A model generated the notes under the pieces. That model was not told the origin of the DNA. It worked only from the letters and a program-made list of their open reading frames with translations, and did not search any database. A stretch of 64,000 nucleotides of DNA from Cladochytrium replicatum (taxonomy: Eukaryota; Chytridiomycota; Chytridiomycetes; Cladochytriales; Cladochytriaceae): positions 248,001-312,000 of the forward strand of contig JAHLKD010000001.1 of assembly GCA_025526935.1 (NCBI GenBank), in the 5' to 3' direction. Position numbers and translations under genes: made by a program. Positions 20,821 through 25,432 of the stretch are shown in pieces. How positions within the stretch are numbered: the first letter of the stretch is position 1; each line of letters starts with the position of its first letter.

Positions 20821-23800
20821 TCAGGCTTTCTTCTCCTTTGTCCTCGCCTGCTTGTATGTGAAGTAGGAGGCGGCAAGAGCAAACAAGACAGAAACCACCA
20901 AGGCTACGATGATGGTTACTTGCAGAGCAGGAGGAATTGGAGCACCATAAACGTAAACTGCGAACTGCGTTTGGAGTGTGCAAAAGCTGTGGGACCGACA
21001 ATGAGATGAATCTCACGCAACCGTGTCAAATAGTTGTTTACCTGAAGTCTGGATCCATTACAGTTGCTTGAAATATGTACAAACCATCGTGCCCCGCCTT
21101 CCATGTCAGTGCATTATAGTTCGTCGCATTCAGAATCTGGTACGTAATGCTCGAGGCATCGTTGTTGGAGATGTTCTTTGTCAGCGATGGATCCCAGCAT
21201 GATTGATAGTTCTGAGAAAGTGGTAAGCCCACTTCAGACAAAAACCAGTTGCAAGTCCCCTTACCCAGCTGCCCCACGAAGTTCCAGGAGAACCCGTTGA
21301 AAAGAAGTCTTCCCATCGTTGTGGTTTTATCAAACATCCCGCCTAGGGGGAGAGAAACTAAGAGGATTTTCAAGCCAGATAGAATGCATTCTACCGCTCC
21401 AGCAGTTGTGTTGTAAATGAATGTGGTTTGATTCATCAGCTCCCACAGTGATATGTCCGTTGTGACATTGCGAACAAACGTATTCCCGTCGTACAGGTCG
21501 AACATAGGAACGAAGAACGACCCGTAATACGTCTTCGCGTTGCGAAACCCAAAACACAAGCAAACAAATGAGCCAAAAACATTCGACATCATCCCACGAC
21601 AATTTCACCTGAACTGGAATTCCAAATAAATTGCAAGAGTATGGGATGACGCTTGAATGGTTGCTGGATGACATCGTAGCGTAGTCTGTGATATACTCTC
21701 CGGCAGGAACGTTGAAAGTTGTGTTTGAAAGGCTCGCGCAAGAAGTTGCCAGGGGAGGGTATGTTGAGGAAGCTCGGAGAACTAATCTTCGAGCCGTGGG
21801 GCAGCCAAGGCGGACTACAGAAACCTGTACAAAGCAACGAGTCAGTCATCGTGGGGTTTACTGTTGAACAACTTTGGATCGAGTGTACCTGCTCAACCTT
21901 GTCACAACCCAGATCAACAGCCTGAGGACGGATCTTAACCTCTGTCTTTCCACTGTACCCTCGGCCTCGACTCACAAAGCTCACGTTGACAGTTCGTTGC
22001 CGAATGTTGAGGCTTCCTTGTCGGATAACACTATCCGAGATTGTTCGGTTGATGAGTATGCTCGAAACGTTACTGAAGGAGACCTAGCTCTTGAATGAGC
22101 TATGCACAATTTTGTTTCTTTGTTCAAGGTTACCGATATGGACGAAGATTCGGATTCAAAAGGTTGAACCACGGCGGTAAATGACTCAGTCTCGTCTAAA
22201 CGGATTTCGGTTGAAAGTGAACAAACAATCACTTGCGAGGAATAAATACCCATATCTAAAAAGTATTCATCTTGGATATCGGTGCTCCAACCGTAGTTAA
22301 CGCATGCTAAAGATGGGTTCAATGAAACAGGTACCCTGAAAGTCGAGTTATAGACGTGAACGGGGTATCCAAAATGAAGCTGGTCTATACCGAGGACTTT
22401 CGATCTCGTTTGTCAAGCTAATGATCCGAGAAATAATGTACGGTCCACTGACGTTGCTGTTTGTTGAGTAGACGACCAGGCGTGACAAAGCGTCAAAGCC
22501 CAATGTTGCGACTGGATGATAAACGATGAATATTTGCATGTTGAAGATCGATTAGAATCTTGTTTGCCTCACTTGCATCGATGGGAATGCCAGCTGCGAT
22601 TTCAACTGCAACATTGATTCCTGACTTCCCAGCAAAGACTCTGCCAAGCAAAGCATTATTATCAAACAACATGCCACTTCTTTCTTTCAATGTTCACCTA
22701 TTTGCGGATGTGAGGAACGCAAACGATCCTTCGAATGACCTCGCCATATCCACCACAAACTCGTTCGAGGCCAGGTTGATTGGTTCAGTAAATGGGTCCC
22801 TACTTTTGAGATCCACTTGAAACACACTCTCTCCACCATTCGGACTTGTCACCACTGAGGAGCCCCAGACATACAGATCGCCTCCACTTGCCTGGTCAAC
22901 CGCAAGCTGTCTTACTGGCTGATTCACCTTAACGGACAATACATCCAGATAAGCGACACAAAATCTTTCGTAAAATGAGATCTTACAGCTTGGCTCCGGT
23001 CCAGCATCGGAAAGTACGATGAGACGTCTCTAAATGCGAACAGATTTTCGAATTTGAGCGTTTTTGGATCGAACGATACCATCCGATCGATTCCACTCTG
23101 ATCACTGATCAACACCAGCACAACGCCTTGAGTATGAAGCACGGTGGCGTCTCTAATGAAACCCGTAACAGTCGCTTGCGTCGTCGAAAGCGGGGCAAGA
23201 CTCATCTCGATTGAAGTGAACCGAACTCCACCATTTGTTGAGAAGTAGAGTCGTCCGACATTCGAACCCCGATTCCATGCCAAAACAATGTTGTTGAACA
23301 TCGAGGCGGCTGAGAGGGAAATGTCGCAGTACGATGGCCCACGTAAGAACGCAAAGGGGATGTTGGGCAATCCTTCTGGTTTTGTGAACGTCACGAGATC
23401 TTTCGTCCAGAACATCCCTACGTCAGTGTTGAAGAATGTTGTAGCGTATGTCGCAACTATGTCTATGATCGAAGAAATCGACAGTTCCGCCGGGAGGCTG
23501 TACAGTGAGCTGGACGAGAGTTCGTTTTGAGAAAACAAGAATAACCTGGGACCGAATGATGACGAGGTGACGTAAGCAACTGTGGGAGAGCAGATGTCCA
23601 GAGCGAGGCGAAGATATGCGTCCGATGAAGAAACAGAGACATTTGTCGAGAGCTGTGTGAGAACGACTTTGGTCCCAGAGTTGTACTTTGAAACGTCAAT
23701 CACCGACTGGATAGATTCGGCGCTGCAATCAAACACGCTGATGTCCTGTCCCTCAACCTGAAGAGGTGCTGAACCTGGGGATCCGCTCTGTAACACAAGC

Positions 23801-24702
23801 GACCAGTATCTATAAAATGGTTTTGGGTCAACGGAAACCGAAATGCATCTTGCATACCCTTCAGTGGAAAAATTTGTCGAAGAAGTTTTCAAGCGATCTC
23901 CCCACAGCAGTGTCAAAACGGGCAGCTCACCAAGAGAATAAAACGAAGCCGTAACTTGGAGAGAGTACTGGAACACAAATAGTGAGAATATGCCTTTTGA
24001 CGTCTTTGGATCATTTTCAATACATCTGAGGGCTGTACAGCCCTACCTGATGCTTCATCGGATGACATTCGACTCGGATCCACGACCCATACTCTCGCTT
24101 GGATCCCAGAAGTATAACTAGGCACGCTCCCAAGATCCGATTTCTTGACCGAGTTCAAATCCTTTATCCATGTTGAGGTCGTGGTGTCCCTCGATACACC
24201 AGAAACAATGTACCACTGATAGCAACCCGGTGATTTCTTGATCGTCACATAGAATGTGTCGGCGGTGGAGGTGTTTCCATCGCGATAAACTTGGAACCAT
24301 TTCGACCCGTATGACGTGCATCGAATTCGAATCGTTTGGTTCGAGAACTTTGAAGTCGGATCTGCGGCTGTTGAACACGTTGGATCGGTTAGCCATTGAA
24401 CTGACGATGCTTGAGACGTGTACGCGGCTCTAAACTGGGAAAATTCAATGGTTTCTGGATCAATCGTGTTTTCCGTTGAGGCTCACCCATCGGTTCGTGT
24501 AGAAACTGATTTTGTCGCTTTCTAGACTCTCATAGTAAAATCTCCCGTTTCCGAAGCGTGCCGGGAGAAGTTGCGCTGAGGATGCAGCGACCGTGATCAC
24601 GATCAACCACAACCAAATCATGAGTATCACAAAAGAGGTCACTTGAAATATAGAACGACATGTTGATACAACAAATATGTTTATCCCGCAAGCTCTAATC
24701 AT
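20821..24702 (-). CDS. CatSper-type channel auxiliary subunit (beta/gamma/delta/epsilon-like)
   Basis: CatSper is the calcium channel of sperm flagella. Its auxiliary subunits are large single-pass proteins with a beta-rich extracellular head. Two ATGs are possible, 24702 and 24621; the second begins MIWLWLIVITVAASSAQ, an ideal signal peptide. A propeller-like region follows (about 24000-22500; NSGTKVVLTQLSTNVSVSSS, GRLYFSTNGGVRF, VDQASGGDLYVWGSS), then a Cys-containing stem with NALTWKAGHDGLYIFQATVM and FCTLQTQFAVYVYGAPIPP, one transmembrane helix (VTIIVALVVSVLFALAASYF) and a short basic tail ending KEKKA at 20821. The stem-TM end is the shared CatSper accessory-subunit signature. Which subunit it corresponds to is not clear. 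Head-to-head with TOM20. Confidence 0.72.
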
Positions 24703-24812: not shown

Positions 24813-25432
24813 ATGGTTTCAACACGGGAGCTTCTGTATGGCAGCCTAACTGCAAGTGCACTCGTTGCCGTGGGATACTTGATTTACTTTGACCAGCGAA
24901 GACAGAGGGACCCGGAGTTCAGAAAGGAAATTCGTACGTCGATGCACATGATTCACATTCGGGCCGTGTTGACTCTGAATTTCTATGGTCTATAGGGCGG
25001 AAGAGGCTGAGGGCAGAAAAGAAATACAACTTGTCCAAAGACAAGTCAAAATCAATTGCTGTCGCGGAAGCGCTGAAAGCCGCAGGACTGTCGGAAGATG
25101 AGCCAGTGCCTCACACCCCTGAAGGACGTGAGAAGTACTTCTTGAAGCACTTGCAGCTTGGAGAGGAGTTGATGATGAGAGGTAAGTTGGGAAACTATGC
25201 GAAGTACACAAAATTTGTTTACGCTGTTACTTTGTCAGGCGAGTCTTACTTCCCGGCAGCGGCGGCATGTTTCTTCCGTGGGCTGAAGGTTCACGGAAAC
25301 CCGATGCAGATGATGATGATGCTGCAGCCAGCGGTACCAGAGCCCGTGTTCAACATGATCATGGAGTTGTTAGCGGAGGACATGAAGGCTACAGAAGCGA
25401 AAGGGAAGGATGCGGCCGATATCGACCAATAA
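24813..25432 (+). CDS. TOM20: Mitochondrial import receptor subunit TOM20
   Basis: Tom20 is the outer-membrane receptor that binds amphipathic presequences. The start is MVSTRELLYGSLTASALVAV at 24813, giving an N-terminal membrane anchor, followed by YLIYFDQRRQRDPEFRK as in fungal and animal Tom20. After one intron (about 24930-25000) come a Lys-rich linker and the receptor domain: KYFLKHLQLGEELMMRGKLG, then ESYFPAAAACFFRGLKVHGN with the TPR-like helix pair, and QPAVPEPVFNMIMELL. It ends GKDAADIDQ at 25432. Length is about 180 aa, normal for fungi. It diverges from the CatSper-like gene with a gap of 110-190 bp. Confidence 0.92.

Follow-up and report, generated by a model that had tools for sequence, protein, structure and literature searches.

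CatSper has been studied almost solely in sperm, and the question raised here is whether a fungus can encode one of the auxiliary subunits of this calcium channel. The locus lies in a stretch of 64,000 nucleotides (referred to below as the window) from contig JAHLKD010000001.1 of Cladochytrium replicatum, where a sequence-only reading had suggested that positions 20821..24702 encode a CatSper auxiliary subunit of the beta/gamma/delta/epsilon architecture. We show herein that an intact, real gene is present at this place, as had been observed. Comparison of its product with known chains supports narrowing that list to the epsilon type, since the epsilon chains outscore the delta chains and the N-terminal part has the length of epsilon. 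It is highly likely that this gene codes for an epsilon-type CatSper auxiliary subunit, whose ectodomain would form part of the roof over the pore of a channel in the zoospore flagellum.

The gene and its family

A single spliced gene runs on the minus strand from 24621 to 20821, and comprises 13 exons and 12 GT-AG introns of 50-76 nucleotides, which were set by hand using frame changes and GT-AG sites. The joined exons make 1031 codons from ATG to TGA with zero internal stops (a 1031-residue protein). Non-coding DNA of the same composition should contain ~49 stops, and the probability of finding none is ~1.5e-22, a value that makes the test look stronger than it is, because the introns had been picked to hold the frame open. 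When our own spliced-alignment program laid the protein back onto the window, the identical 12 introns were recovered, which serves as a consistency check only. The G+C content is 0.48 in the exons versus 0.42 in the introns. As to the span originally proposed, 20821 is the exact end of the gene, and 24702 corresponds to another ATG in the same frame, 27 codons upstream of 24621; the latter, which yields a compact signal peptide, is for that reason the likelier start codon.

Residues 828-1026 of the protein match the Pfam family CATSPERD-E_C (PF22850; profile positions 18-213 of 215) with an expectation value (E) of 1.1e-35 and a score of 123.5 bits, far above the cut-off of 27.4 bits. The profile search that had been proposed as a check on the CatSper assignment thus returned a match rather than none. 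At E values up to 1, the other matches of the full-length Pfam scan were CATSPERB_C (E 6e-4), which is below its cut-off, and one weak, unrelated family (E 0.094). A search of all PDB chains at E up to 1 recovered only four distinct sequences, two of CatSper epsilon and two of CatSper delta. The epsilon chains 9ubw_H and 7eeb_H (which we take to be the mouse protein) matched with 93 bits (E 1.2e-25 and 1.3e-25), and the two delta sequences (PDB chains 7eeb_G, 9ubw_G) with 75.4 and 72.9 bits (E 2.7e-20 and 1.4e-19); a second piece of the delta alignment, at residues 321-464, scored 7.7 bits and is non-significant alone.

The lengths of the aligned proteins point in the same direction. The stem and membrane helix align with the epsilon chains over 194 residues (829-1022), a block whose first residue is 829 (of 1031) in the present protein and 770 (of 985) in 7eeb_H, and each of these two proteins has one C-terminal membrane helix. 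The delta chains share the C-terminal family CATSPERD-E_C and match over ~260 residues, but with a lower score; their match starts at residue 769 here versus residue 491 of 805 in 7eeb_G. Thus, 768 residues precede the shared block, 278 more than in 7eeb_G, and the short ectodomain of the delta type is not found. A CATSPERE_NTD2 domain may also be discerned at its expected place, where two weak matches (E 0.0079 and 0.022; 16.7 and 15.2 bits) lie below the cut-off of 27; this family was absent from the full-length Pfam scan at E up to 1. Apart from this domain, a Pfam scan of three ectodomain pieces returned two unrelated families (E 0.064 and 0.55). An N-terminal domain 1 (NTD1) and an immunoglobulin (Ig)-like domain also belong to the layout of CatSper epsilon. 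Unlike the known epsilon chains, the present protein has a fungal host, and its NTD1, NTD2, propeller and Ig parts are unrecognisable by sequence at accepted cut-offs.

The overall layout of the protein is of the kind that the sequence-only reading had described, with the beta-rich nature of the ectodomain presumed from the family. Its N-terminus, MIWLWLIVITVAASSA, resembles a signal peptide (as judged by eye and by hydropathy, windows 1-3). Only one region close to the C-terminus is strongly hydrophobic (mean of up to 2.64 in the 19-residue windows that begin at 989-1004); it bears out the single membrane helix that had been claimed, and elsewhere, signal peptide aside, only windows 595 and 597 exceed 1.6, and barely (1.61 and 1.68). 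Both stem motifs quoted earlier are present, in the order given, ahead of this helix. The protein carries 16 cysteines and 15 N-glycosylation sequons. The signal peptide-like start and the one C-terminal hydrophobic stretch would fit a membrane-anchored ectodomain.

All exons are on the minus strand. Exon 1 (24487..24621; residues 1-45) holds the start codon, the signal peptide-like start and the first residues of the ectodomain, and exon 2 (24047..24434; residues 46-175) encodes N-terminal ectodomain, with the weak CATSPERE_NTD2 match lying across its junction with exon 3. The start and most of a beta-propeller are presumed, from the family, to lie in exon 3 (22987..23993; residues 175-510), and the presumed propeller extends into exon 4 (22698..22927). 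Exons 5 (22573..22640) and 6 (22453..22511) follow, after which exon 7 (22134..22379) would lie between the propeller and an Ig-like part presumed in exon 8 (21889..22083). The conserved CATSPERD-E C-terminal domain, delimited by Pfam and PDB matches, starts at residue 828 in exon 9 (21609..21824; residues 777-848), and its stem continues through exons 10 (21395..21532), 11 (21265..21342) and 12 (21042..21211), the last of which contains NALTWKAGHDGLYIF. Exon 13 (20821..20986) encodes the stem end with FAVYVYGAPIP, the single membrane helix, a short basic tail and the stop codon. The divergent neighbour on the plus strand, at window positions 24813-25432, is a gene for the mitochondrial import receptor TOM20 (MAS20), identified by its Pfam match and with its start codon placed by eye, which starts ~190 bp from the start of the epsilon gene. 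When 10 other frames of the window were scanned with Pfam, in addition to four pieces of the epsilon gene, TOM20 and an SNF2-type domain were found above the cut-offs.

Partner genes and duplicated segments

The genome (50.5 Mb in 198 contigs) was searched for further CatSper subunits. Of 25 candidates genome-wide, 19 matched the Ion_trans profile. Four pore loci were picked by eye from six channel-like places on the basis of pore motifs and S6 segments, their exon pieces were joined by eye, and the joined sequences were then compared with PDB. A single Ion_trans domain, split over no more than two exon pieces, was seen at each of the four. The locus on contig C83 matches CATSPER1 with 120.0 bits (query 17-241 as one stretch), that on C65 matches CATSPER2 with 120.6 bits versus 60.4 for CATSPER4 and 50.8 for CATSPER3, that on C101 matches CATSPER3 with 116.8 bits, and that on C27 matches CATSPER4 with 79.2 bits. 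No other CatSper type was found among the best 60 of 128, 125 and 119 matches for C83, C101 and C27, respectively, and CATSPER1 was absent from the best 60 of 125 matches for C65. Hence, four distinct single-domain pore subunits, CATSPER1-4, appear to be present in the genome, where their absence had been named as an outcome that would speak against a CatSper subunit.

CATSPERB_C was matched on C131 with 94.3 bits, and CATSPERG_C above its cut-off (27.6) on C56 and C32, in pieces of 35.7, 35.0 and 27.7 bits. The profiles CATSPERB_C, CATSPERD-E_C, CATSPERG propeller and CATSPERG_C were silent in 14 of 14 control genomes; those of them named in the Ion_trans and LYS2 searches are prokaryotes, and the controls therefore guard against false positives but say nothing about missed genes. 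CATSPERB and CATSPERG appear from these matches to be present as well, and genes matching CATSPER1-4, beta, gamma and epsilon are all present in one genome. As for the full channel complex that the sequence-only reading had taken to be implied, genes matching its pore, beta, gamma and epsilon parts were found; its assembly and its work in the zoospore flagellum are proposed below.

Other channel-like sequences were seen in the course of this search. A protein encoded at C1:1484696-1485085 contains two voltage-sensor-like stretches with no pore seen, and by eye presumably resembles a tandem Hv1-type proton channel; a similar stretch lies on C19. Two near-identical channel genes of HCN/CNG look, at C122:35883-36737 and C117:33757-34431, are perhaps another duplicated pair, again by eye. 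The stretches that hold CATSPERB (C131:59000-64000) and CATSPER2 (C65:46000-48000) have a G+C content of 0.375-0.435 and 0.353-0.376 per kb, respectively, below that of their surroundings.

A protein search of the genome with the epsilon-type sequence revealed one further place, at ~188305-191797 of C58, where the best piece is 56% identical. This second copy is badly broken. The part that aligns with residues 1-266 contains 15 stops and the part that aligns with residues 259-605 contains 5 (each of these alignments spans two intron sites), and 2 more lie where residues 969-1031 align. No DNA match to exons 6, 7, 8, 10 or 11 was found in it, and exon 12 is covered over 62 of its 170 bases; a weak protein match (33%) at residues 837-891 touches exon 10 and makes the loss of that exon less sure. 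Two working D/E paralogs, as an independent delta/epsilon pair, were rejected on account of these stops and missing exons. When 49 kb of C58 were compared, 32 DNA blocks of 65.5-83.2% identity, with some rearrangement, linked window positions 14754-56201 to C58:170369-214980. Since the surroundings of the broken copy match the window, it came through a large segmental or whole-genome duplication, and a tandem duplication was rejected.

The two CATSPERG loci on C56 and C32 also lie in matching segments, with eight blocks of 71-80% identity within 9 kb. Both stems have matching stretches free of stops, in a listing limited to stop-free rows longer than 25 residues. The block matches of C58 and of C56/C32 are signs of a large-scale or whole-genome duplication, or of a hybrid origin of the genome. 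Protein searches for copies of the pore and CATSPERB genes (E up to 1e-5) gave one additional partial place each for CATSPER2 (C30; 36 residues, 61%), CATSPER3 (C9; 141 residues, 59%, one stop) and CATSPER4 (C56; pieces of 45 and 40 residues, 74% and 69%). At this threshold, none was found for CATSPERB, and none for CATSPER1 beyond CATSPER3's own place.

Alternative explanations

Several observations weigh against an epsilon subunit in a complete channel. The first ~750 residues have nothing significant by sequence in Pfam or PDB; NTD1, the beta-propeller and the Ig-like domain had no match in these searches, and the N-terminal 749 residues alone gave just three chance matches in PDB (E 1.4-1.5). 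A structure prediction for exon 3 alone, made without relatives, had a predicted local distance difference test score (pLDDT) of 32 and a predicted template modelling score (pTM) of 0.23, an unusable fold. The N-terminal domains and propeller are therefore assigned from length and order. The genome search covered CATSPER1-4, B, G and D/E, with EFCAB9, TMEM249, TMEM262, SLCO6C1 and C2CD6 outside its scope. In the whole-sequence rankings, the first CatSper chain stood at rows 2, 21, 29 and 22 for CATSPER1-4, respectively, below multi-domain Cav/Nav chains, whose scores sum several domains. The best single Cav/Nav domain in the CATSPER2, 3 and 4 lists scored 50.1, 48.5 and 44.3 bits, values taken from the top two or three chains of each list, with some alignments partial and the CATSPER1 list left out. 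Some Cav/Nav chains with one qualifying stretch in the CATSPER4 list have totals slightly above 79.2 bits (e.g., 82.7 and 82.1). A PDB search at E up to 0.01 with a 492-residue open frame of the CATSPERB gene returned nothing, and the CATSPERG beta-propeller profile had zero matches in the genome; the latter profile is uninformative, because it had zero matches in all 14 controls too.

The long N-terminal part without a significant match would also suit a secreted or membrane-anchored protein of adhesion or sensing that has only the stem in common with CatSper and does another job. We regard this as very improbable, given that the matched part takes in both the membrane-near stem and the helix, that genes matching CATSPER1-4, B and G occur in the same genome, and that CatSper parts outside the membrane segments and the pore loop are reported to be poorly conserved between species (PMC5362262). 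An equally slight chance attaches to a contaminant, or to non-fungal DNA wrongly merged with a fungal assembly, which the low G+C of the CATSPERB and CATSPER2 stretches might suggest. The window sits on a 1.5 Mb contig and is even in composition (G+C 0.444-0.507 per 2 kb), and the same genome contains a duplicated counterpart of this region, which carries the broken second copy. A gene of the LYS2 type, a marker of fungi, is also present: the pieces of this alpha-aminoadipate reductase on C55 span profile positions 1-1388, and five of them sum to 1586.7 bits versus a whole-protein cut-off of 1030.1, which no exon passes alone. Parts of the LYS2 profile match in 12 of the 14 control genomes too, so that it is the completeness of the gene, not the mere match, that forms the argument. 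The LYS2-type gene, the short introns and the CatSper set are in line with a flagellated fungus, and probably with a chytrid.

A less remote alternative, yet still an unlikely one, is that the protein belongs to the delta type, or represents a form from before delta and epsilon separated, which would occupy both of their positions in the complex. The genome searches turned up a single intact D/E gene, the stem also matches delta (2.7e-20), and delta is reported to have arisen later than epsilon, which is as old as CATSPER1-4, beta and gamma (PMC5362262). No separate delta gene was seen genome-wide by exon-wise profile and protein searches, which can miss genes; the CATSPERD-E_C profile missed the second copy on C58, and a profile search alone is therefore no proof that delta is absent. 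Against a delta-type protein stand the higher epsilon score (93 versus 75 bits) and the longer ectodomain ahead of the shared region, and an epsilon-type CatSper subunit remains the preferred explanation.

Proposed role and significance

A protein of this type would most likely enter the secretory pathway, and its last helix would anchor it next to one of the pore-forming subunits (CATSPER1-4). Its ectodomain, together with those of CATSPERB and CATSPERG, would cover the pore with a roof on which channel assembly and delivery depend, and the channel would sit in the membrane of the zoospore flagellum, let calcium in and alter the beat, and thereby steering or speed. We infer assembly, flagellar location, gating and the effect on swimming; the roof-over-channel mechanism is drawn from the mammalian structure and from the partner genes detected in the genome. 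Most of the roof above the CatSper pore is made up of the propellers of beta, gamma, delta and epsilon, and in mice the entire complex disappears when any one of the reported pore or other membrane subunits is lost (PMC9205950). CatSper of sea urchin sperm is described as consisting of CATSPER1-4, beta, gamma and epsilon in a 1:1 ratio (PMC9205950), and the present genome has genes matching the same seven membrane subunits.

According to a 2008 study, the complex first arose in early animals (PMC2572835). Another study called epsilon ancient and had the flagellated fungus Allomyces macrogynus among the genomes searched (PMC5362262), and most CatSper genes are reported to have been gained and lost jointly across 1952 eukaryotic species (PMC12638846). 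CatSper subunits (e.g., CATSPER1 or CATSPER2) occur in flagellated fungi and are not kept in all of them; the same report places CatSper outside the minimal flagellum, and its main text, as available, makes no mention of CATSPERE (PMC13358043). For the oomycetes, which are also zoosporic, the picture is mixed, since multiple CatSper homologs are reported in two genomes (PMC4820453) and no CatSper2-like protein is reported among the zoospore channel proteins of Phytophthora parasitica (PMC12223298). The present gene agrees with an ancient epsilon and with CatSper subunits in part of the flagellated fungi, but differs in that the available parts of PMC5362262 and PMC13358043 name no chytrid epsilon gene with its exons. 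A fungal epsilon gene as such was not found in the literature searched, which included the available text of PMC3410928, PMC7935092 and PMC4685582, with supplements outside the search. As the general idea is already in print, the finding contributes one well-defined case and no new concept.

That genes matching the pore, beta, gamma and epsilon subunits occur in a fungus speaks for an early origin of the entire membrane core, delta excepted. It is possible, though we hold it only tentatively, that this fungus has kept the ancestral seven-part core (CATSPER1-4, beta, gamma and epsilon, with no delta) and has reverted to a single functional copy of almost all its parts after a duplication of large segments, gamma alone having two C-terminal loci. 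Zoospores offer a setting in which to test the role of the channel in a flagellum unrelated to fertilisation. If the tentative history is true, chytrid zoospores would provide free-living cells for studying the function that CatSper had before there were sperm.

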